Below are positions 470-12,375 of a DNA stretch of 64,000 nucleotides, in pieces; position 1 is the first letter of the stretch, and every line of letters starts with the position of its first letter. The translations under genes were made by a program, and so were the position numbers. The notes beneath the pieces are model-generated. The model saw nothing but the letters and a program-made list of their open reading frames with translations. It was not told the origin of the DNA and did not search any database. Source of the DNA: Polyangium mundeleinium. GTDB lineage: Bacteria; Myxococcota_A; Polyangia; Polyangiales; Polyangiaceae. The stretch lies in the NCBI RefSeq assembly GCF_028369105.1, contig NZ_JAQNDO010000001.1, forward strand, positions 8,402,501 to 8,466,500, read 5' to 3'.

Positions 470-2929
470 TCAGGTCTTCGTGAGCAGATCGTTGAGCTGC
501 CCCACCACCTGCTTTGCGGACGCGCCCGGATTGTTGTCTTTGTACGTCGTGTCGGCGAGGCCGGCGAAGACACTCGTGATGTCGTGGTCGACCTTGCCCG
601 GCTCTGCCCAGGACGCGACCGTCGGAATCGTCATGTACACCGAGAACGCGCGGTGCTCGCTGCCCGGCCGCTCGCCGATGATGTGCACGATGGCCCGCCT
701 GCTCTTCGCATCCGCGAGTTTTCCGTAAAGAACCTCGCCGAGGTGATACCCCGCACGCACGCGGCCGGAGGTGCAGACGACGTGCTCGGGCGCGACCTTG
801 TACCCCGCCGCTTCGAGCTCCGCGCGCAGCGCCGGCAGGAACTTGTCGACGTGGCCCGGATCCGAGATCGAGAAGGCGTTGAGGCCCTCGGAAATCATGA
901 TCTGCACGTCGTACTTGCCCGCGTGCGTCTCGCGCAGCTTCTCGACCTCGCGAACCGCGTCGTCCTTGATCTGCTCGCCCGTCGGCGGGTGCAGGATGTA
1001 ATCATCGCGATCCTTCGCGCCCGTCCAGACCTTCACCACGTTCGGGATCGTCGCGACGAACGCCGGAGCGAGCTCGGCGAGGATGCTCTTCTTGCCGTCG
1101 GCCACGAGCTCGCGGATGTACTTGTCGAGCTCGGGGTTCAGATCCCACGGGTTCGCCCCGTGGCCCTCGGCGATGAACACACCGCGCTTCTTCACGGCGT
1201 CGAGCGCGTCGAGCGTCTCCTGCGCATTCATGATCTCGTCCACGGTGCGCATGTCGGCCGGGTTCTTCGCCTTCACGTACTTCGCATAGACGTACTTCAC
1301 GTTGCCGAAGTACTGCGTGGGCTTCCCCATGGCGTCGATCACGCCGAGCTCCTTGAAAAACGCCCACATCTTGTCGTCGACCTTGTAGCCGAACTTGTCG
1401 CGGATCCGGACGTGGTCCTGGAACGCGGTCGTCAGGTACGAGAGCATCGGATCGTTCTTCGTGGGCAAACCCATGAGGTAGGCCGGGTTCGCCGGCATGA
1501 TCTGGTCGATGCACCAGTCGAGATCATCGAGATCCACCGACATGTGCAGCGTCGAGCAGATGTCGAGGCCGATGGGCAGCCCGTGGAGCTTGCCCATCGC
1601 GATGTCCTCCAGACAGCAGCGCACGAGCTGCTCCTTCGTGCGGAAGACCTCGGGGCCGATGAAGCCGGCCACGTCGTTCAGATGCACCCACGGCGCCTCG
1701 GGGATGCCTGCGGCTTTTTGCGCCTCGGCCACCCTCTTCTTCAGCGCGCGCGCAAAGCCGTACTTGCGCGACTCGTGCACGACCATGTCGAAGCCCGCGC
1801 CGTGGCCGTTCGTCGCGTCCGCGCCCTGGCCCGTCTCGAAGTAGAGGCCGTACTTGCCCGAGCGCGTGGCCGCGTGGTTCAGCATCTTCTCCACGGTCAC
1901 GTCGAACGTCGCGTTCGCGTCGACCGTGCTGCCGAGGCTCTGGAACCAGAGCGCCGTCGACCCCGGGAACTGCTTCTCCACCTCGGCCTGCACGTCGATG
2001 TGCGCGAGACAGCAATGCGGCATCGTGTCTTCGAGCTTGAACGTGACGAGCACGTCCTTCAGCACCTCCTCGATGGCGTGCACGCTCGCGACCTCGCTCG
2101 ACACGGGGTTGTTGCCGAGCACGACGTCGCCGACCGCGAAGGCAAAGCCGTTCATGACCTGCCAGAGGATGTCGGTCGTGTCGTCCGTGGGCGAGTTCGG
2201 CTGGATACGCGCGCCCATGTAGCCCTTGGCGCCGAGGTTCGATCCCGGCAGCGGGTTGAACACCGTCTGGCCGACCTTGATGAGCTCGGCGTTGTTCATG
2301 AGCTTCACGATCATGCCGATGATGTCGCTCGGCAGGCCCACCATGACGGCCTTGATCTCGTCCTCGGTCTTTTCGAGCAAGAACGATTTGAGCTCCGACA
2401 TTTTCCACGCGCGCACGCCGTCGAGCGCGGCCGTGTCGGTCGCCTTCATGACGAGGTCGTACACCGCGTCTTCGAGCATCGGGCGATCCACGAGATCGCC
2501 GATCTTCGTGTTCGAAAGCAGCTTGCGCGCGTTCTCGCGCGACAGGTCGTCGGCGGCTGCGATCCCGAGGGCCTCGTCGCCTTCCTTGAAATCGTTCGCG
2601 GCGCCGATCACGGCCTTGTAGAACTCGTGGTCGTACTTGCCCTTGACGCGGGTCACGTACGCGATGACGTCCTCGCCGTCCCCGATTTCGGGGATGGATA
2701 CGCCGGAAGGCGCGGTGGGCGGCGCCGGCGCGACGGGATCGGAGCCGCACCCTGCCGCGAACGTCGCGGCGACGCCGCCCAGGAGCCCCATCATGAAGGT
2801 GCGACGGCGGAGCGCGAGGCGCGCCGCTGCGGGGAGCGCCGCGGCCGCCACCCGAATCTGCCGAGGTCTACGAGGACGAGTGAGCTCGTTTGTCAGCTTC
2901 TTCATGCGATCGTGCTCCCAAGCAACCAT
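470..2929 (-). CDS. Tat-exported lipoprotein fusing ethanolamine ammonia-lyase large (EutB) and small (EutC) subunits
   Basis: Predicted 819-residue protein. Residues 41-61 form a twin-arginine lipoprotein signal (RRRTFMMGLLGG, then AAGC with Cys61). Residues about 80-590 resemble EutB, the adenosylcobalamin-dependent lyase that converts ethanolamine to acetaldehyde and ammonia: A-R-I-Q-P-N-S-P-T-D-D at 240-250, VLGNNP near 270, YFETGQG at 363-369, GFIGPE at 422-427 and a D-x-M-L-S-Y-x-T-T-A-F-Q-D segment near 493. Residues about 640-790 resemble EutC (ISEGLNAFSISD, then HIIGERPGSEHR). The R-x-Q pair and the Glu of GFIGPE correspond to ethanolamine-binding residues known for the E. coli enzyme. 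EutB and EutC are normally separate cytoplasmic proteins, often microcompartment cargo; a fused, exported form is unusual. No eut shell, reactivase or aldehyde dehydrogenase gene is nearby. An internal ATG at 2905 would also keep the signal. Family call is strong; the present substrate is inference. Confidence 0.85.
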   Translation of the reverse strand: MVAWEHDRMKKLTNELTRPRRPRQIRVAAAALPAAARLALRRRTFMMGLLGGVAATFAAGCGSDPVAPAPPTAPSGVSIPEIGDGEDVIAYVTRVKGKYDHEFYKAVIGAANDFKEGDEALGIAAADDLSRENARKLLSNTKIGDLVDRPMLEDAVYDLVMKATDTAALDGVRAWKMSELKSFLLEKTEDEIKAVMVGLPSDIIGMIVKLMNNAELIKVGQTVFNPLPGSNLGAKGYMGARIQPNSPTDDTTDILWQVMNGFAFAVGDVVLGNNPVSSEVASVHAIEEVLKDVLVTFKLEDTMPHCCLAHIDVQAEVEKQFPGSTALWFQSLGSTVDANATFDVTVEKMLNHAATRSGKYGLYFETGQGADATNGHGAGFDMVVHESRKYGFARALKKRVAEAQKAAGIPEAPWVHLNDVAGFIGPEVFRTKEQLVRCCLEDIAMGKLHGLPIGLDICSTLHMSVDLDDLDWCIDQIMPANPAYLMGLPTKNDPMLSYLTTAFQDHVRIRDKFGYKVDDKMWAFFKELGVIDAMGKPTQYFGNVKYVYAKYVKAKNPADMRTVDEIMNAQETLDALDAVKKRGVFIAEGHGANPWDLNPELDKYIRELVADGKKSILAELAPAFVATIPNVVKVWTGAKDRDDYILHPPTGEQIKDDAVREVEKLRETHAGKYDVQIMISEGLNAFSISDPGHVDKFLPALRAELEAAGYKVAPEHVVCTSGRVRAGYHLGEVLYGKLADAKSRRAIVHIIGERPGSEHRAFSVYMTIPTVASWAEPGKVDHDITSVFAGLADTTYKDNNPGASAKQVVGQLNDLLTKT

Positions 2930-4136: not shown

Positions 4137-5543
4137 TCATTCCACACGAAATCGAGGATCCTCGCGGATCTCGCGGATCCGCTCGCGCGCCGCGGGTTCG
4201 TCCGGGCCGATGTCTGCCGAGTCGCCGCCCGCGCCGATCGAGATACGCCGCCCGCCTTCGACGTCGAGATCACAGAGCCCCTCGCCCCACAGGATCGCGG
4301 CCTCGATCGGGCGCCGCTCGGCGCGTGGCCCGGCCGGGCCGAGCACGGCATCGAAGAGCTGGCCGAGGTCGTGCCGAGCGCCGCCCTGGCAGAAACGCGG
4401 GGCGCTCCTCGGCACGTGCTGGCCGAGCTCGCCGAGCAGGAAAGGCAAACCGAGGCTCCGCGCGATCGTGAGGTCTTTCTCGAGCTTCCACGTCGCGCGG
4501 GCGAACGAGGGGTCGTTCACCGAAGGCGCGACGGTCGTGTACACGTGCGCCGTCCAGACAAACCGCGCCCGGAGGGAAGCGGGCAGCGCCTCGATCCACG
4601 TGCGCTGGAAGGACACGTAGGCCGCCTCGTGCCCGCGCAGGTCGCCGAGCAGGATCGGGTGCGGCAAACGCTCGCCGAGCAGGCGCAACGCGGGCTGCAC
4701 GAACTCGCTCACCCAGACACCCGCCTCGGGGCCGTCCCAGGTCCCGCGGGCGACGTTCCGGAAGGTGTCGAGTTCGTTGACGAGCTCGAAGGCCAGGATC
4801 GCGCGATCCTCCGCGATGGCGGGCCTCGCCGCGAAGGCCTCGATACGCTCGGCGAGGGACCCGGCGCCTGTTTGTTTCCAGCCGCCTTCGAGATAAAAAC
4901 GCCGGGCGAAGAAGGGGCTCTTGGGATCCTGGTCGTCGAGCGAGCGCGTGCTGTCCGGGGCGCCGTAGCCGGCCTGGTGGTTCTGCAGCGTGACGATGAA
5001 ACGCAAAGGCTGCTCGCGGCGCGCGTTTTCGTCGAGCAGGAGCGCGAGCATATCGGCGGCGTGTTTGATCTCGGTCGACGAGCCGGTTTGCTTCAACGAA
5101 CCCCACAGGCGCACGACGGGCGCGCCGCTCCTGGCGACCGCGTCGAGCGCGATGCAGGCGACTCGGCGGCGATCGAGCTCGGTCGGCCCTCCTTCGTAGA
5201 GGAGTTTGTCGAGAAGATCGAACAGGTGTGCCCCGACGAACCGCAGCCGAACGGGGCGACCGGCAAAGTCCTGTTCGAGGTGACCGAGCGCTCCGGGTTT
5301 GGCAGGGACGACCCGCGCGAACCCGTCCGGGCGCGGCCAGATCCCGGGAATGTCACGCGTCTCGGAGCACGCCGGATGCGGACGCGCAACCGGAGGTGAA
5401 GGCAGATCCGCGTGCAGATTCGAAGGCGAAGGCGAATCCGGCGCCGTCGGCGGATTCGTGAGCGGCGCGGGAAGAACCGCGTCGGGGCGTGACGGCGCGT
5501 CACATGCGGCGACAATGAAAAAGAATGCCAGGAAAAGACGCAT
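4137..5543 (-). CDS. GH5-like glycoside hydrolase lipoprotein (cellulase/mannanase fold)
   Basis: Predicted 468 residues. ATG 5543 is chosen because it begins a short lipoprotein signal (MRLFLAFFFIVAAC, Cys14); upstream in-frame codons add no export signal. A proline/serine-rich linker precedes the domain. Features of a clan-A (beta/alpha)8 glycosidase: R-L-W-G after an early strand, LAFELVNELD near residue 254 (acid/base Glu of the N-E motif), V-W-T-A-H-V-Y-T, and FLLGELGQH near residue 369 (nucleophile Glu position). This fits the GH5 family, which cleaves beta-1,4-glycans, or a related mannanase. The substrate cannot be read from the sequence. Probably anchored in the outer membrane facing out. 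Confidence 0.65.
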   Translation of the reverse strand: MRLFLAFFFIVAACDAPSRPDAVLPAPLTNPPTAPDSPSPSNLHADLPSPPVARPHPACSETRDIPGIWPRPDGFARVVPAKPGALGHLEQDFAGRPVRLRFVGAHLFDLLDKLLYEGGPTELDRRRVACIALDAVARSGAPVVRLWGSLKQTGSSTEIKHAADMLALLLDENARREQPLRFIVTLQNHQAGYGAPDSTRSLDDQDPKSPFFARRFYLEGGWKQTGAGSLAERIEAFAARPAIAEDRAILAFELVNELDTFRNVARGTWDGPEAGVWVSEFVQPALRLLGERLPHPILLGDLRGHEAAYVSFQRTWIEALPASLRARFVWTAHVYTTVAPSVNDPSFARATWKLEKDLTIARSLGLPFLLGELGQHVPRSAPRFCQGGARHDLGQLFDAVLGPAGPRAERRPIEAAILWGEGLCDLDVEGGRRISIGAGGDSADIGPDEPAARERIREIREDPRFRVE

Positions 5544-5593
5544 GCGGGACCGAGGAGACCTCGTACCCTCGACGAGGCTCCCACCCCCCGAAA

Positions 5594-5959
5594 TCACGAA
5601 AATAAAGTGGGGAGGAACTGCTGCATTTGCTTGGCCTGCGCCTCGGCGCGGGCACGGCAGGCTTCGAGGCGGGCGCGCAGCGGGCCGTCCGCGTCCCGCG
5701 CGCCCCGGCGAAAGACCTCGGCCGCGCGCTCGTGCGTGAGCTTCAGCAAAGGCGCGAGGCTCTTCTGATCAACGCGCATCGGGGTGTCGAGGAGCACGAT
5801 GCACGCTTCGGCCGCATCCCGCAGATCCGATGCGTCGAGGGCGTCCGCGACCGGGAGAAGCTCGACGAGCGACTGCCTGAGTGTGTCTCGCCCACCTATG
5901 GGAATCGCGCTGGACATGAGGATGCGGTCCAGGATAGCGGAGGAATTCGTTTCGGCCAT
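5594..5959 (-). CDS. Small hypothetical protein
   Basis: Predicted 121 residues from ATG 5959 (MAETNSSAILDRILM). The frame is open further upstream to 6109, but that extension is low-complexity and unconvincing. Mostly alpha-helical, leucine- and alanine-rich: repeated L-x-x-x-L patterns over residues 25-70, then a basic/acidic segment ending LPTLFS. No signal peptide or membrane segment. I do not recognise the family. It lies upstream of the GH5-like gene on the same strand with a 50-bp gap, so co-transcription is possible. Confidence 0.5.
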   Translation of the reverse strand: MAETNSSAILDRILMSSAIPIGGRDTLRQSLVELLPVADALDASDLRDAAEACIVLLDTPMRVDQKSLAPLLKLTHERAAEVFRRGARDADGPLRARLEACRARAEAQAKQMQQFLPTLFS

Positions 5960-6283: not shown

Positions 6284-8746
6284 CTAGCTGGAATGGACCG
6301 AGGCGCCCTCGGGCAAATCGAGCTCCGGCACGGTCGGGCGTTCACCGATGGGCGTGACGCGGTCGCCCGGCAACGGCTCGGGGCGAGGCTCGGCGAGCCG
6401 GGTCGGCCGCCGCGCCGCAGGGACGAGCACGGCAGCGAGGAGCACGGACGCCCCGCCGCAGAGCACGGCGGCGCTGTAGCCGAAACAGAGCGCGAGCAAG
6501 GCGCCGCCAAAGAGCGCGAACGCGGCGAAGGCTCCGGCGACGGCCATCGAGAGAGGGAGCGCGCGGTCGGCGATCGAGGACGCGATCCGCGTGCCGAGCG
6601 CGAGGAGCGCGCCGAGGCCCAGGCCGATCACGCCGAGGATCACGGCCACGACGCCGAGCCGCGCCGGCAGCGTGAGCCCGAGGGCCAACCCGAGCGCCGC
6701 ATCGAGCCCCATCGCGAGGGGCGCGAGGACGAACACGAGCGCGAGCGACCAGCGCTGCGCGGCGCCACGCGCGGACACGTCCCACGGCCGATGCCCGAGC
6801 CCGAAGCCCACGCCGAGCGCGAGCAAAAAGACGAGCGGCAGCACGAGCGCCACGAGATCGGCCCGGCCCACGACCACGCCCAGCCGCGGAAAGAGCGCTC
6901 CGCCGATGAGCGAGACGCCCGCCGCAGAGAAACCGAGCGCGAGCGCCGCGCGCAGGATCGATCCACGCGAAGCGCCGTCGAGCGTCCGCCGCGCCGCGAC
7001 GAGCGGCCCGAGCAGCGCGACGAACGCCGCGAGCGCGGTCACCACGAGGCCGGCGACAATCGTCAAGAGCCCGCGCTGGTTCTCCTTCAGCCCGCGCACG
7101 TCGAGGAGCGTCTTCTTCAGCTCGCCCGGCGCGACCGTGGAGAACCAGAAGGGACGATCGTCCGTCGGCGGCCTTAGATCCGTGCCTTGCCGCGCCGAGA
7201 GCTCGGCCGGATCGGCGCCCTCGACGAGCAAACGACGAAGGTTTCCTTTGGGCGCCTCCGCCATGAGCAGCTCGGCGAACTTGTGCCGCCGGCAGTGCGA
7301 CCGGAGGTTCGTGAGCTCCTCGGCGCTGAGCGGCGTGCGCTTGAGGAGCAGCGTGGTGATCCTGTCCTTCGTGCAGCCGAAGAGGTGCATCGCAGGCGCC
7401 TCGGCCCCCGCCTCGCGCAGCGCGCGCGTCGCGAGCGCGACGAGCCGATCCGCCTCCACCTCGGGCCGCGAGAGCGTCACGGTGCCCTCGGGCACGACCG
7501 CTAGCAGCAAATCCCGCACGGCCTGCGTCGTGAAGAGCGGGCTCGGCGTGGCCGCGACGGCGCCGACCGGCGAAGGCGCGAAGGCGTCGAAGTACCCGAC
7601 GACGATGCTGCGATAAGGCACGGGTGGGCGCCGGAGGTACCCGCGCGGCCCCTCGACGGTGAGCCGGATCTCGGGTTTGTCGTAGAGCTCCCCGCTCCAC
7701 GCGCGCGACTCGCCGCGCATGATCTCGTGCACGATGGCCGGGTCCGGCTCGACCGCGTGAATCTCTTTCTGGTTCTGCCGGAGCGCGGACCGGAGCTCGC
7801 GCCCGCCGGCGGCTCCCACGACGAGCACGGGGCCCTTGTCCTTGTGCAGGACGTAGCCGAGCTCGTCCGGTGAGGCCGGGGGATTCTGCTTCCCCTCGTA
7901 GATCTGCGTGCCCATCGTGCCGTCCGCGCGCAACCACGCGGCGCCCGCCGTGGGTTTGTCCACGGTGAGCAGGGCGCGGTTCGTCCAGCGCTGGAAGGAG
8001 ACACGCTCGATCTGGATCCACCGGATGGCCGCAAGCTTGAGGTACGGCGCGCCGATCTCGCCCGCGAGCAGCACCGAAGAGCCGAGCACGAACGTCATGA
8101 CGATCCCGAGGTGGACCCGCGGCGGCTCCGCTTCGCCGGACGAACCCTCGCCCTCGGCCTCGACGACCTCACGCCGCGCAGCGACCGCGAAGAGCGCCGC
8201 CGCGAGGCTCGCCGCGATGGCCGCGCCGAGCCCCACCCGCGCAGGCCCGAAGCGCAGGACGAACGCCGCGACGACGACGCCACACGCCGCGCCGAGGAGC
8301 CCGCTCTTGCCGACGTCGGCCACGCGCCGCCGCGCCACGCCGAGGGCGCCCGCGAGCGTCACGCCCGCGAGCAGGAAGGGCAGGAGCGAGGTGCCGAGGA
8401 AGATCGCGAGCTGGCCGAGCGCCGCACGATCGAAGGTGTCGACCGAGCGAGCGCGCACCCCGACCACGACCGAGACGGCCATCGCGCCCGCGGAGAGCGC
8501 GGCGAAATGCGCGACCGGCGCGGCGCTACGTGGCGGCTTGCCGATGCCCCGCAAGGCCCCGGCGAACCACGCGCCGACGCCAAGCCCGAGCGGCAGGAGC
8601 GCAATCCACACGAGCTCGAAGTGAGGCCCGAGCAAGGCGGAGAACATCCGCACGAGCGCGATCGAGAGCACCACGAACGCGGCGAGGTAAAGCGCGATTC
8701 CCCCGGCGAGGGCCCTCGACTGGCTGACCGACATTGCGAGGGACAT
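6284..8746 (-). CDS. Multi-pass membrane protein with spermidine-synthase-like domain
   Basis: Predicted 820 residues in three parts: about seven hydrophobic helices (residues 15-250), a soluble Rossmann-like domain (about 280-480), and about seven more helices (550-790). The central domain has a nucleotide/SAM-binding glycine motif (LVVGAAGGRE, near residue 305), an acidic strand end (HAVEPDP) and an R-G-Y-L-R turn, as in spermidine synthase and related methyltransferase-fold proteins. Membrane-fused members of this superfamily are common in myxobacteria and are usually annotated as fused spermidine synthases, though polyamine activity is rarely shown. The usual catalytic D of spermidine synthase is not clearly conserved (VVGYFDAFAPS is the candidate region). 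A second ATG lies at 8734. Confidence 0.7.
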   Translation of the reverse strand: MSLAMSVSQSRALAGGIALYLAAFVVLSIALVRMFSALLGPHFELVWIALLPLGLGVGAWFAGALRGIGKPPRSAAPVAHFAALSAGAMAVSVVVGVRARSVDTFDRAALGQLAIFLGTSLLPFLLAGVTLAGALGVARRRVADVGKSGLLGAACGVVVAAFVLRFGPARVGLGAAIAASLAAALFAVAARREVVEAEGEGSSGEAEPPRVHLGIVMTFVLGSSVLLAGEIGAPYLKLAAIRWIQIERVSFQRWTNRALLTVDKPTAGAAWLRADGTMGTQIYEGKQNPPASPDELGYVLHKDKGPVLVVGAAGGRELRSALRQNQKEIHAVEPDPAIVHEIMRGESRAWSGELYDKPEIRLTVEGPRGYLRRPPVPYRSIVVGYFDAFAPSPVGAVAATPSPLFTTQAVRDLLLAVVPEGTVTLSRPEVEADRLVALATRALREAGAEAPAMHLFGCTKDRITTLLLKRTPLSAEELTNLRSHCRRHKFAELLMAEAPKGNLRRLLVEGADPAELSARQGTDLRPPTDDRPFWFSTVAPGELKKTLLDVRGLKENQRGLLTIVAGLVVTALAAFVALLGPLVAARRTLDGASRGSILRAALALGFSAAGVSLIGGALFPRLGVVVGRADLVALVLPLVFLLALGVGFGLGHRPWDVSARGAAQRWSLALVFVLAPLAMGLDAALGLALGLTLPARLGVVAVILGVIGLGLGALLALGTRIASSIADRALPLSMAVAGAFAAFALFGGALLALCFGYSAAVLCGGASVLLAAVLVPAARRPTRLAEPRPEPLPGDRVTPIGERPTVPELDLPEGASVHSS

Positions 8747-8809: not shown

Positions 8810-10669
8810 TCAGCGTTCCTTGCCGAGCGGAGCGAGCGGCCACGGGCGCAAGAGGGGCACGGCCGCCGTCGGGCCGCTTTGCCGCAGCGCGCGCGCGCAC
8901 TCGTCGACGAGCAGGCGGCGCGGCCCGAACGCCGTCCCGTTCGCGGCATCGGCGTCCATGAGCCGCGTCGGCGTGTCACGGCCGAAGTCGTCGGGATGGC
9001 CGGGATCGTCGAGCAGCACGTGCCCGAGCTCGTGCGCGAGGGCGAAGCTCGCGCGGTCGGCCCGGAGCGCGGCGCGATCCGTGATGAGCACGTTGCGCAC
9101 CGCGCCGCCGTCGGCGCCGATGAAGCTCTCGCCGATGCGGCCGCTGCCCGCAAAGCTCGGCACCACGATCACCTCGATGGTCGAGGGATCGCCGTCGTCG
9201 AGGGCCTTGATGAGCGCGCGCTCCTCGACCGTGCCCGCGATCGCGTCGATGTCGTTGAAATGTTGCAGCCCATCTTCGAGCTCGACGCGCCCGATGCACG
9301 CTGTGAGCAGCGCGTCCGTGCTGACCGGCCCCGACGCAGGCGGCTCGACAAGCGCCGGCTCGCCGCTTTTGCGCCGCACGAGCACGTCCGAGCTGCCGCG
9401 CGCGCCAGCCGCGATCGTCGCGTTGTCCGAGACGCGCGCCACGAAGCCCGCCGCGGCGATCGCCGTCGCGAGCACGCGCGCCGCGCCCGAGGGCGTCGTG
9501 CCCTTCTCGAGCGTCACCGCGACCTCGCGCCCGTCCACGCGCACGCGCACCTTGCCTCCGCCCGCCGCTGGCAAGCCGTGATCACAGCCGAGCGCCACGA
9601 GGTGCGGGCGCGGCGGATCCACGATCGTGATCTCCGTCTCTGCAGGCGGCCCGAAGCTCACGCCACACGCGCCCCAGAGCGTACTCGCCTGCGCCACGTC
9701 CGCGCGCGCCAGCACCATCGCGCCCGCGTCGTCCCCGCCCACGGGCGGCGGCCCACCCGGCCGCGGGCGCACCAGAAAGACGCGCAGCACGCCGCGGTAT
9801 CGCACGAGTGGCCCGAGCGGCGACGCGCGCGGCCCCGCGACGCGCAGCCCCCCGAGCTTGCGCACATCGCTGATCAGCGCGAGCTCCACCGCGCCGCCGA
9901 CCTCCGCGCGCACGGATCGATCCCGCACCGTGGGGTGGTTCCGATCGATCTCGTCCGGCACCACGCGGATCGGCGCGGTCGAGGCGCACGCGAGCGACGC
10001 GCCCACGCCGTCGGGACATGCAACCGCGCCGAGCATCAACGGCTCCAGCCGATCGACGATCGCGCCCGACGGCGCGCGGCCCGTCACGCGCACGACCGGA
10101 GGCAGATCCTCCGGCGTCGCCACAACGACGAACCGCACCGCGTCGGGGTTCGTGGTGTTCGCATACGGATCCGCGGGCAGCCGCTCGGGCGGCGTGCGCT
10201 CGAGCGAAGCGTGCGAGCGCGCCGGATCCACGAGCCGGCCCTGCCCGTCGATCGGCCGCACGTCGATCGCCGCGATCATACGCGTTCGTCCGAACGCCTT
10301 CACCTCACCACGCCCCGCGCGTACGGCCTGCAGCGCGACACGCTTCGCGCCTGCGGGGATCACGCTCCCCGCGAACGGCCGCCCGTCCACGAGCAGGCGC
10401 GCCACGTCGCCGCGAATCTCGATCGTTCGATCCTTGCCCTTCGGCAGCACGAGTTCGAACAGATCTGTGGATGGCGCGACGACGTCCTGCTCTGCGTCGG
10501 GACGACCATCGACGTCGTCGTCGTCGCGATCGACGCCGAGCACGATCCGATCATCGGCCTGCGCCGCGAGCAGGCTCTCCGGGCTGCCCTGTCCCGCGGC
10601 GGCGAGGACGACCCCGAGGGCGAGCGCGCGCCCGAAGGGCCGTCCGCGCGCGCCCCGGGGGGGGCTCAC
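8810..10669 (-). CDS. Secreted metzincin-like metalloprotease, coupled to the upstream OmpA gene
   Basis: Predicted 619 residues. The start is a GTG at 10669 that overlaps the TGA of the upstream OmpA gene (GTGA), a classic translational-coupling arrangement. Residues about 10-30 are a hydrophobic signal segment. The middle has beta-rich, Asp/Pro-rich domains, including a D-x-D-D-D-D-V-D-G segment near residue 42 that may bind calcium. The C-terminus has HELGH at 546-550, a third His at 558 (P-G-H) and an R-L-M-D Met-turn candidate at 570-573. This ordering resembles metzincins, but the spacing after HELGH is longer than the standard HExxHxxGxxH, so exact family is uncertain. Likely exported with or processed at the cell surface. 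Confidence 0.65.
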   Translation of the reverse strand: MSPPRGARGRPFGRALALGVVLAAAGQGSPESLLAAQADDRIVLGVDRDDDDVDGRPDAEQDVVAPSTDLFELVLPKGKDRTIEIRGDVARLLVDGRPFAGSVIPAGAKRVALQAVRAGRGEVKAFGRTRMIAAIDVRPIDGQGRLVDPARSHASLERTPPERLPADPYANTTNPDAVRFVVVATPEDLPPVVRVTGRAPSGAIVDRLEPLMLGAVACPDGVGASLACASTAPIRVVPDEIDRNHPTVRDRSVRAEVGGAVELALISDVRKLGGLRVAGPRASPLGPLVRYRGVLRVFLVRPRPGGPPPVGGDDAGAMVLARADVAQASTLWGACGVSFGPPAETEITIVDPPRPHLVALGCDHGLPAAGGGKVRVRVDGREVAVTLEKGTTPSGAARVLATAIAAAGFVARVSDNATIAAGARGSSDVLVRRKSGEPALVEPPASGPVSTDALLTACIGRVELEDGLQHFNDIDAIAGTVEERALIKALDDGDPSTIEVIVVPSFAGSGRIGESFIGADGGAVRNVLITDRAALRADRASFALAHELGHVLLDDPGHPDDFGRDTPTRLMDADAANGTAFGPRRLLVDECARALRQSGPTAAVPLLRPWPLAPLGKER

Positions 10670-12375
10670 CGCCCCTCGATCGCCTGCGTGACGATGTGGA
10701 ACTCGACGCGACGGTTGCGCGCCTGCCCCTCGGGCGTCGCGTTGCTCCCGACCGGCTTGCGCGCGCCAAAACCCTTCGATTCGAGCCGGTTCGCCGCGAT
10801 GCCGCCCTTGTCGATCAGGTACATGCGCACGGCCGCCGCGCGGTTCGCCGAGAGCTTGTCGTTGTACTCGGGCTTGCCGATGTCGTCGGTGTGCCCTTCG
10901 ACGCTGACGAGCTTGATCTCGGGGTTCGCCTTGAGCAGGCGCACGACCTCGTCGAGGATTGGATAGCTCTTCGGCAGGATCACGTTGCTGTCGAACTCGA
11001 ACTCGACCTGCTTCGTGATCTGAATCTCGCTCGATCCGCTGATGCGGCGGACGAACTGCGGGCAACCTTCCTTCTCGGGATCGTCGCCGCGCATGCCCGG
11101 CTCCTTCGGGCACTTGTCCTCGGCGTCGGGCACCGTGTCCTGATCGGCATCGTCCTCGGGGCAGCCATCGCGATCGTCGATGCCGTCCTTGTCCTCGGGG
11201 TTGGCCGGACACTTGTCGACGTTGTCGGGGATGCCGTCCTTGTCGAGATCGGACATCGTCGGGCAGCCGTCGTCGGGGTTCGGCGGCGCCTTGTCTTCCT
11301 TGTCGACGGGGCACATGTCGACGAGGTCCGGGAAGCCGTCCTTGTCCGTGTCGACGTCGTCGCGGAACTGGTACCGCGCCGAGCCCGCGCCAACCTCGGT
11401 GTCCTTGAGCTGGAAGGCGCCGCCGACGACGGCGACGATGCGCAGATCGGGCGCGTAGCCGCCCGTGAGGCGCGAGCCGACCGAAAGGCCCGCCCACGAA
11501 AGTTTCTTCGCGTCGAGCGCCATGCGACCCGAGAGCGACCACTCGACCGGCGCGGCGTCGAGCTCGCCGAGCGTCTCGGGCAGCATGCCCAAGGAGCCGA
11601 AGATCTCGGCCCCGATGCGCAGGCGATCCTGCATGAGCGGCACATAGCCGCCGACGCCGTAGGTGAGCTCGCGACCGACCGTGAGCTCGTGCAGCTGCGC
11701 GGTGGGCCGGATGGAGAAACCCGCGTTCAGGGTCAAGAAAAATTTCTTCGCGTCGTACTCGGTGGCGAGGCCGACGGTGCCCCACGCTTCCTTGTCACCG
11801 CCGAAGGAGAACTCGTCGCCAGTCGGCAGGAACGCCGCCGCGCGCAGGCCGAGCTTGAAGGACTTGTCCTCCGTGCGGAACAAGATGAAGCGACCATCGA
11901 GCCGCAGATCCATCGGCGCGAAGGCTTGCATGTTGACGTTCTGGTTGAGCCCGGCCGCTGCGTTCCCCGTGGGGTTGCCGCTCTGGTAGAGCGCGAGCGG
12001 GAGCGTCACCTGCACGGCGCCGCGCTCGAGGATCTCGGCGCCGGCCGTGATGTACGCCGCGAGCTGGTTCGCGACGGGCGGACCTTTCAGCGTCCCGGCC
12101 TTCTCGATGTTGTCGACGTGGTTGTCGACGCGCAGCGGGTTCAGCGAGAAGCCGAGCCCGAACTGGCCGTAGAGGCGCGTCTGCCCGATGTCGGGGCGCC
12201 AGACCGCGAGGCCATCCGCGGGCGCGCCGCCGATCTGCAGCCGGTCGAGGTAAAATGTCTTGTCCTGCGCGTTCGCCGCAAGCGGCACGAGCAAGGTCGC
12301 AAGGAGGGTGGCGCCGGGCAAAAGGGTCTTTTTCGCCCGCGTTGCCCATGCGGGTCCCATAGGTCGTCGAACCAT
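10666..12375 (-). CDS. OmpA-family outer-membrane protein with thrombospondin type-3 repeats
   Basis: Predicted 569 residues. ATG 12375 is preferred over an adjacent GTG because a GAGGA lies about 9 nt upstream. Signal peptide (hydrophobic stretch ending AANAQ), then about 310 residues of amphipathic beta-barrel-like sequence, then four to five D-x-D-x-D-G TSP3 calcium-binding repeats (residues about 345-440), then a C-terminal OmpA domain (455-565) with VEGHTDDIG, N-x-x-L-S-x-N-R-A and NRRVEFHI, the peptidoglycan-binding core. Such proteins link the outer membrane to the cell wall. The gene overlaps the start of the metalloprotease gene by 4 bases, suggesting the two products are made together. 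Confidence 0.85.
   Translation of the reverse strand: MVRRPMGPAWATRAKKTLLPGATLLATLLVPLAANAQDKTFYLDRLQIGGAPADGLAVWRPDIGQTRLYGQFGLGFSLNPLRVDNHVDNIEKAGTLKGPPVANQLAAYITAGAEILERGAVQVTLPLALYQSGNPTGNAAAGLNQNVNMQAFAPMDLRLDGRFILFRTEDKSFKLGLRAAAFLPTGDEFSFGGDKEAWGTVGLATEYDAKKFFLTLNAGFSIRPTAQLHELTVGRELTYGVGGYVPLMQDRLRIGAEIFGSLGMLPETLGELDAAPVEWSLSGRMALDAKKLSWAGLSVGSRLTGGYAPDLRIVAVVGGAFQLKDTEVGAGSARYQFRDDVDTDKDGFPDLVDMCPVDKEDKAPPNPDDGCPTMSDLDKDGIPDNVDKCPANPEDKDGIDDRDGCPEDDADQDTVPDAEDKCPKEPGMRGDDPEKEGCPQFVRRISGSSEIQITKQVEFEFDSNVILPKSYPILDEVVRLLKANPEIKLVSVEGHTDDIGKPEYNDKLSANRAAAVRMYLIDKGGIAANRLESKGFGARKPVGSNATPEGQARNRRVEFHIVTQAIEGR

Follow-up and report, generated by a model that had tools for sequence, protein, structure and literature searches.

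Adenosylcobalamin-dependent radical eliminases are thought to be cytoplasmic enzymes that need reactivation, and those acting on ethanolamine are often enclosed in a protein shell against acetaldehyde; to our knowledge, ethanolamine ammonia-lyase has normally been known only inside the cell. A fusion of the EutB and EutC subunits of this enzyme was described in 2012 in Pelobacter carbinolicus (PMC3543383). According to the available portion of that paper, two fused copies, eutBC1 (Pcar_0491) and eutBC2 (Pcar_0467), are 70% identical to each other and belong to a cluster that includes cobalamin genes between the copies, a corrinoid-type ABC transporter, a VWA protein, an ATPase and an outer-membrane cobalamin channel. 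Strains of P. carbinolicus are reported there to grow on ethanolamine, and the authors propose that the presence of two EutBC may reflect separate lyases for ethanolamine and for choline. The same portion of the paper makes no mention of a signal on EutBC, its signal-peptide passages treating other proteins. One of the genomes analysed here (G663) is probably that of P. carbinolicus, as its two EutBC copies share 71% identity, against the published 70%, and its gene setting comprises the kinds of genes described, namely cobalamin genes between the copies, a corrinoid-type ABC transporter, a VWA protein and an ATPase. The two copies are 62-63% identical to another family member, L046, and an aldehyde:ferredoxin oxidoreductase gene lies near them. 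Both start with a Sec-like signal ending in AGA. Taken for the ethanolamine-growing P. carbinolicus, G663 thus holds two EutBC at the 1e-100 threshold, both of which look exported to judge from their N-termini.

Fusion of EutB and EutC is therefore already known, and the view of the initial annotation that the two are separate does not hold throughout, given the Pelobacter proteins (PMC3543383) and a second fused copy, beside EutA, in the genome considered here. The searched literature yielded no account of an exported adenosylcobalamin ammonia-lyase: a search for ethanolamine ammonia-lyase with a Tat or twin-arginine signal, or for its export, thin on subscription journals, returned no report, and the available portions of PMC3543383 and PMC5821096 contain none. 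The protein encoded in the window, by which we mean the whole 64,000-nucleotide stretch of Polyangium mundeleinium DNA that was analysed, is best explained as an exported, membrane-anchored, adenosylcobalamin-dependent ethanolamine ammonia-lyase, a reading to which we assign a probability of about 0.68.

The fused EutB-EutC frame

The host is a soil bacterium of the Polyangium kind. Its fused EutB-EutC frame occupies window positions 470-2929 of the minus strand (the initial annotation had given no strand), with 819 codons plus stop and zero internal stops. The true start is probably codon 9, an ATG at 2905, because GGGAG stands 9 nt upstream and the most diverged genus copy aligns from there; GGGAG precedes the ATG in five other genus copies too. 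The features are as follows.

470..2905, minus strand: fused EutB-EutC open reading frame (translation probably from the ATG at 2905, giving 811 codons plus stop; at its longest the frame extends to 2929)
2915..2919, minus strand: GGGAG, a possible ribosome-binding site with a spacing of 9 nt to the ATG at 2905
2747..2809, minus strand: Tat-type lipoprotein signal by pattern, RRRTFMMG, hydrophobic run and AAGC, residues 41-61
1313..2626, minus strand: EutB domain, residues 102-539 (Pfam PF06751, E 3.3e-135; fold match 3abo_A, Z 45.1)
623..1084, minus strand: EutC domain, Pfam residues 616-769, fold match 567-819 (PF05985, E 1.3e-24; 7xrm_B, Z 21.8)

Both Pfam matches lie far beyond chance, which bears out the EutB-like and EutC-like halves that had been recognised in one frame. 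The PF06751 match covers profile positions 4-434 of 435, and the NCBI model NF011649 gives 589.7 bits against a cut-off of 554. The EutC half passes the PF05985 cut-off (87.3 against 25.8 bits) but covers profile positions 43-187 of 235 only, and with the NCBIfam EutC equivalog it scores 71.2 bits, under that model's cut-off of 230; by Pfam and by fold match (EutC residues 60-287) it is a EutC domain. Thus the EutB half is full, and the EutC half is a core from which the N-terminal part of EutC is missing. An overlapping plus-strand frame (584-2953, 789 codons) has no Pfam match in the translated part examined, and in this GC-rich DNA we regard it as an antisense shadow. Against five other genus copies, the whole EutBC frame has a dN/dS of 0.30-0.38; the stretch of residues 9-80 evolves more quickly in copies that are further removed, with pN reaching 0.29 against a pS of 0.39 (L009).

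Residues 41-61 of the protein, RRRTFMMGLLGGVAATFAAGC, combine a twin-arginine motif with a hydrophobic run and with a cysteine at the lipobox position. This signal (R41-R42-R43-T-F-M-M-G...A58-A59-G60-C61), already pointed out in the initial annotation as RRRTFMMG with an AAGC lipobox, is kept in 6/6 genus genomes, the window's own counted, with a genus-wide consensus of RRR[TS]FMMGLLGG and a cysteine following A[AV]G. Its hydrophobic run is modest (mean 1.67), and the host genome encodes TatC (219.4 bits). By its sequence pattern (R42-R43-T-F, hydrophobic run, A58-A59-G60-C61), the window protein is a predicted Tat-exported lipoprotein.

Predicted fold and active site

An AlphaFold2 model of the window EutBC as a single chain, made from an alignment of 32 family members, has a mean pLDDT of 85.5 and a pTM of 0.83, with residues 18-74 below pLDDT 50. 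The EutB half matches Escherichia coli EutB (3abo_A) with Z 45.1 and rmsd 1.8 over 432 residues, and the EutC half matches 7xrm_B with Z 21.8 and rmsd 2.8 over 227 residues (EutC 60-287); Foldseek agrees with both matches. The model therefore overlays on EutB and EutC, the check that the initial annotation had proposed.

By alignment, E. coli EutB residues R160, Q162, N193, S247 and F258 correspond to window R241, Q243, N274, S331 and F342, and E287, F329, D362 and M392 to E365, F423, D456 and M486. The R-x-Q and GFIGPE residues, which had been expected at the active site, align with E. coli R160/Q162 and F329. All nine positions, which we take to be substrate- and coenzyme-binding residues, are identical in 57/57 family rows; these rows include six identical pairs, and thus 51 distinct sequences, and the count leaves out L004, L072, L073, L075 and L085 (partial, redundant or misframed) as well as L023, L025 and L101 (frames shorter than 400 codons). 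The roles of EutB residues in substrate and coenzyme binding were reportedly described by Shibata and colleagues in 2010. E. coli EutC R206, V207 and E228, presumably cobalamin contacts, correspond to window R723, V724 and E753 and are invariant in the 32-row alignment. The putative active-site and coenzyme residues of EutB are thus identical in the window protein at nine of nine positions.

That these positions, presumed substrate contacts included, are identical in all 57 rows makes it unlikely that the protein is an exported enzyme of similar type acting on choline or another small vicinal amino alcohol, or with another corrinoid. What speaks for such a specificity is an overall identity to E. 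coli EutB of only about 30%, together with the idea of distinct ethanolamine and choline lyases put forward by the Pelobacter authors (in the available portion of PMC3543383). A text search of the available portions of PMC12670283 and PMC10440813 did not find the residue names.

Distribution of the family and its signals

The exported-type fused EutBC is not a Polyangium oddity. The fused clade reaches Bacteroidota, Acidobacteriota, Planctomycetota and Thermodesulfobacteriota, and EutB and EutC are both matched in 32/32 family members scanned. Within the window's order, close relatives (E <= 1e-70) occur in 7 of 183 genomes, namely the six of the genus and one from a different genus in the same family; four loci that match the window EutBC at 87-92% (L033, L034, L035 and L069) are letter-for-letter copies in the genus members G077, G056, G093 and G086. 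Matches occur in 20 of 289 genomes of the window's class at 1e-60 (two of these by ordinary EutB-like hits only), in 27 of 282 of its phylum (mostly ordinary EutB at 32-38%), in 38 of 277 of the class of G545 at 1e-100 (six with 37-39% copies only, and a few with partial copies only), and in 6 of 395 of the class of the Echinicola genome. A scan of the contig collection, which is a sample because it used only two short peptide patterns, gave 42 loci in Bacteroidota, Geobacteraceae and other Thermodesulfobacteriota, Acidobacteriota, Myxococcota, one Planctomycetota and one Longimicrobiales. In a tree of 76 EutB domains, unrooted and subject to a long-branch warning, a branch with 100/100 support separates the fused family from the rest; the tree was built after removal of 17 rows that were partial, duplicates or nearly so, and without the 37-39% group.

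The combination of fusion and signal recurs in several phyla, and most rows carry export-type signals. Classed by pattern and by eye, the 51 distinct rows comprise 34 Tat-like, 12 Sec-like and five without a signal, so that the case foreseen in the initial annotation, in which all relatives would lack a signal, does not arise (46/51 are Tat-like or Sec-like). The Tat-like rows divide into 27 with RR and seven with RK, all seven in Bacteroidota, and some family signals have a lipobox-like cysteine. Under a fixed rule, an RR/RK-x-hydrophobic motif beside a hydrophobic run, 33/57 family rows and 0/35 other EutB rows are positive (among the 33 is L059, yet it was classed Sec-like by eye), and a variant with hydropathy >= 1.8 gives 25/57 against 0/35, a contrast that may favour the family because its start codons were hand-picked and those of the 35 controls, among which one gene is represented twice, were set by rule. 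In several Bacteroidota signals the hydrophobic run is weak (about 1.25, against 1.29 in one motif-less control), and the Tat case there therefore rests on the RRDFL motif.

Tat-like and Sec-like signals are both present even in one class, that of G545, where G703, G704 and G813 are Tat-like among many Sec-like members. Thus the destination, and with it the cell location, seems to be conserved across the family while the export route changes. The holoenzyme export by Tat that the initial annotation thought conceivable does not cover the family, because one branch has Sec-like signals. In the tree of 76, the five rows without a signal, all of the Nannocystis group, are grouped within the family, suggesting a single loss; export is then not indispensable, and these rows count against its being obligatory. 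Loci L080-L084 of this group, members of the exported family without a signal, start right at the mature domain.

The same five rows, devoid of any N-terminal extension, would also suit an ordinary cytoplasmic ethanolamine ammonia-lyase whose N-terminus is merely signal-like or serves as a membrane tether facing the cytoplasm, as would the calling of signals by pattern and eye and the faster evolution of residues 9-80 in some copies. Such an enzyme is quite improbable in view of the Tat-like or Sec-like signals of 46/51 distinct rows, the lipobox-like cysteine in some of them, the 0/35 controls with a motif beside a hydrophobic run, and the retention of the motif in 6/6 genus genomes.

Signal-free fused copies and EutA

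The host genome (G000) holds a second fused EutBC at C1:4575399-4577462, in one frame and without a signal, which is 28-35% identical to the window EutBC and has EutA directly upstream (4573870-4575249). Alanine replaces Asp362 in this copy and its relatives (8/35 other EutB rows, two of which are the same gene), and one further non-family EutB row has isoleucine for M392. The complete E. coli-type site is thus found in the copy with the signal, and the reactivase with the other. EutA and the signal-free EutBC that follows it make up L002/L112 (G000:C1:4573870-4577462), and the change of Asp362 to alanine was seen in the related fused copies as well. Another fused EutBC group, represented by L165, L166 and L167 in the class of G545, is 37-39% identical to the exported family and falls outside it as drawn; none of the three examined has a signal.

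As a partner of the exported EutBC, EutA can be set aside. Over 39 genomes, 37 with the family plus G763 and G779 with a signal-free relative, the EutA profile gave 30 matches over cut-off, only seven of them full-length (E < 1e-50): five in the window's genus and two in the Nannocystis group, in every case on a contig different from that of the family copy. No exported copy in the 40 genomes searched adjoins a full-length EutA. The remaining matches, which score 20-32 bits over about 45-140 profile positions, are probably FtsA-like actin-fold proteins, with which a cross-match was seen.

Gene neighbourhoods and riboswitches

Sec-type EutBC genes are followed by a cluster encoding a membrane protein, an ABC ATPase, a Peripla_BP_2 protein, a FecCD permease, MoxR and a DUF58/VWA protein; SBP_bac_6 and Gcw_chp genes often precede it. 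The transporter/MoxR cluster is present in 9/11 Sec-type loci of the contig collection with at least 3.6 kb downstream (L038, L039, L044, L046-L048, L053, L062 and L072, the last with its N-terminus cut off and its Sec type assigned from relatives), and also in the hand-chosen L162, L168 and L169. These loci are related, and so do not represent independent events. A constant association of Sec-type copies with the cluster is ruled out by its absence at L051 and L066. Beside Tat-type loci, no FecCD or Peripla_BP_2 gene was seen in the flank examined (up to about 13 kb downstream, and hardly any at the shortest); L036, L040, L071 and L104 have only a generic ABC ATPase (26-28%), and the cluster is absent at G703, G704 and G813, the Tat-type members in the class of G545. 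Because the FecCD and Peripla_BP_2 families transport iron chelates as well as B12, it is the Pelobacter paper and the clustering that tie this cluster to corrinoids. At L046:12220-14129 and L162:1193-7931, the MoxR and DUF58/VWA genes adjoin Sec-type EutBC and FecCD, and might form a cofactor-insertion module.

The flanks of the genus loci (L033-L035, L069, L104 and L105) contain no corrinoid-type ABC transporter with MoxR/VWA, and the window EutBC therefore belongs to the protein family and not to a gene cluster of the Pelobacter/Geobacter type. No B12 gene was recognised among the Polyangium-type neighbours scanned. Conserved neighbours are uninformative as a functional clue for the Polyangium type: in Polyangium fumosum two EutBC neighbours match IgGFc_binding and TIG, and five window ORFs have no Pfam match. 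Minus-strand window ORFs without a Pfam match include 4137-5597 (486 codons), which by eye resembles a lipoprotein glycoside hydrolase, 6284-8746 (820 codons), by eye a multi-spanning membrane protein with a methyltransferase-like middle, and 8810-11785 (991 codons).

Neither the window nor any of 32 family loci, Polyangium-type included, contains a cobalamin riboswitch at gathering score. Seven further loci yielded one, at L163:19088-19272 in a Pelobacter-like genome (115.3 bits), with the eutBC1 unit on one side of it and the cobalamin genes on the other, ahead of the latter and not before any eutBC start. A molybdenum/tungsten riboswitch is found at an aldehyde:ferredoxin oxidoreductase gene in a Pelobacter-like cluster (L162:836-955), and an Rfam group II intron (D1-D4) match just after EutBC in a Nannocystis MAG (L036:8532-8676).

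We give least credence to an exported corrinoid-binding protein, in which the ethanolamine ammonia-lyase fold would catch or hand over cobalamin outside the cytoplasm with catalysis secondary or lost: the Peripla_BP_2, FecCD and ABC ATPase genes by 9/11 Sec-type loci, the cobalamin riboswitch within the Pelobacter-like cluster and the outer-membrane cobalamin channel of the Pelobacter cluster (available portion of PMC3543383) would fit it, but invariant substrate-site residues would not be expected, the paralog showing that D362 can be lost, and FecCD and Peripla_BP_2 are not seen by Tat-type copies in the flank examined.

Proposed mechanism

If the window protein is, as we favour, an exported ethanolamine ammonia-lyase, the EutBC chain would fold, and probably take up cobalamin, in the cytoplasm; Tat would carry the folded protein across the inner membrane, and it would be lipid-anchored at Cys61. 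The usual radical mechanism would then yield acetaldehyde and ammonia from ethanolamine outside the cytoplasm, with neither EutA nor a microcompartment involved, and both products could cross membranes and be used. Members of the Tat branch could be exported folded with the cofactor, and those of the Sec branch would be loaded outside, or not at all. A plausible benefit would be that acetaldehyde is kept out of the cytoplasm, the periplasm standing in for the microcompartment; another may be the taking up of ethanolamine released from lipids, of prey or otherwise. Prey lipids are a possible source, but the family also occurs in Geobacter-type bacteria, for which no predatory habit is known.

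Several considerations count against an exported ethanolamine ammonia-lyase. Adenosylcobalamin enzymes of this class lose activity as they turn over and have to be reactivated at the expense of ATP, a process difficult to picture outside the cytoplasm, and a Sec branch would not leave as a folded holoenzyme. Neither a riboswitch nor a B12 gene was recognised near the Polyangium type, the hydrophobic run is modest (1.67), and the EutC half lies under the NCBI EutC cut-off (71.2 against 230 bits). Extended to the whole family, the reading becomes tentative, and taken jointly its parts are rather doubtful: that in several phyla an adenosylcobalamin radical enzyme works outside the cytoplasm with the periplasm as a substitute for the microcompartment, that the Tat branch is exported with its cofactor and the Sec branch loaded outside through the corrinoid-type transporter and MoxR/VWA, and that turnover proceeds there without the ATP-dependent EutA reactivase. 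Should the exported version prove conserved, adenosylcobalamin radical chemistry would run outside the cytoplasm, and there would be a second way to keep acetaldehyde from it. Where adenosylcobalamin is loaded and how such an enzyme manages without EutA are questions that the exported EutBC raises, and the family would provide a natural comparison of the Tat and Sec routes for a single cofactor enzyme.

Comparison with known systems

The window protein shares with Pelobacter EutBC the fused architecture and, by sequence, the family; the Pelobacter-type signals are Sec-like and cobalamin genes are clustered there, whereas the Polyangium signal is of the Tat-lipoprotein type and no cobalamin genes were recognised by the gene. 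With E. coli EutB and EutC (PDB 3abo) it has in common the fold of both parts, the nine EutB residues and EutC R206, V207 and E228, and it differs in being a single chain with an export signal, no adjacent EutA found, and the N-terminal part of EutC missing. The EutA-linked copy of its own genome likewise holds EutB and EutC in one frame, but has no signal, has EutA upstream and carries alanine for Asp362, whereas the window copy has a signal and keeps the aspartate. Although their chemistry is unrelated and involves no adenosyl radical, the respiratory reductive dehalogenases are corrinoid enzymes that carry a Tat signal and act outside the cytoplasm, and it is this pairing of corrinoid and Tat signal that the Polyangium protein would share with them.
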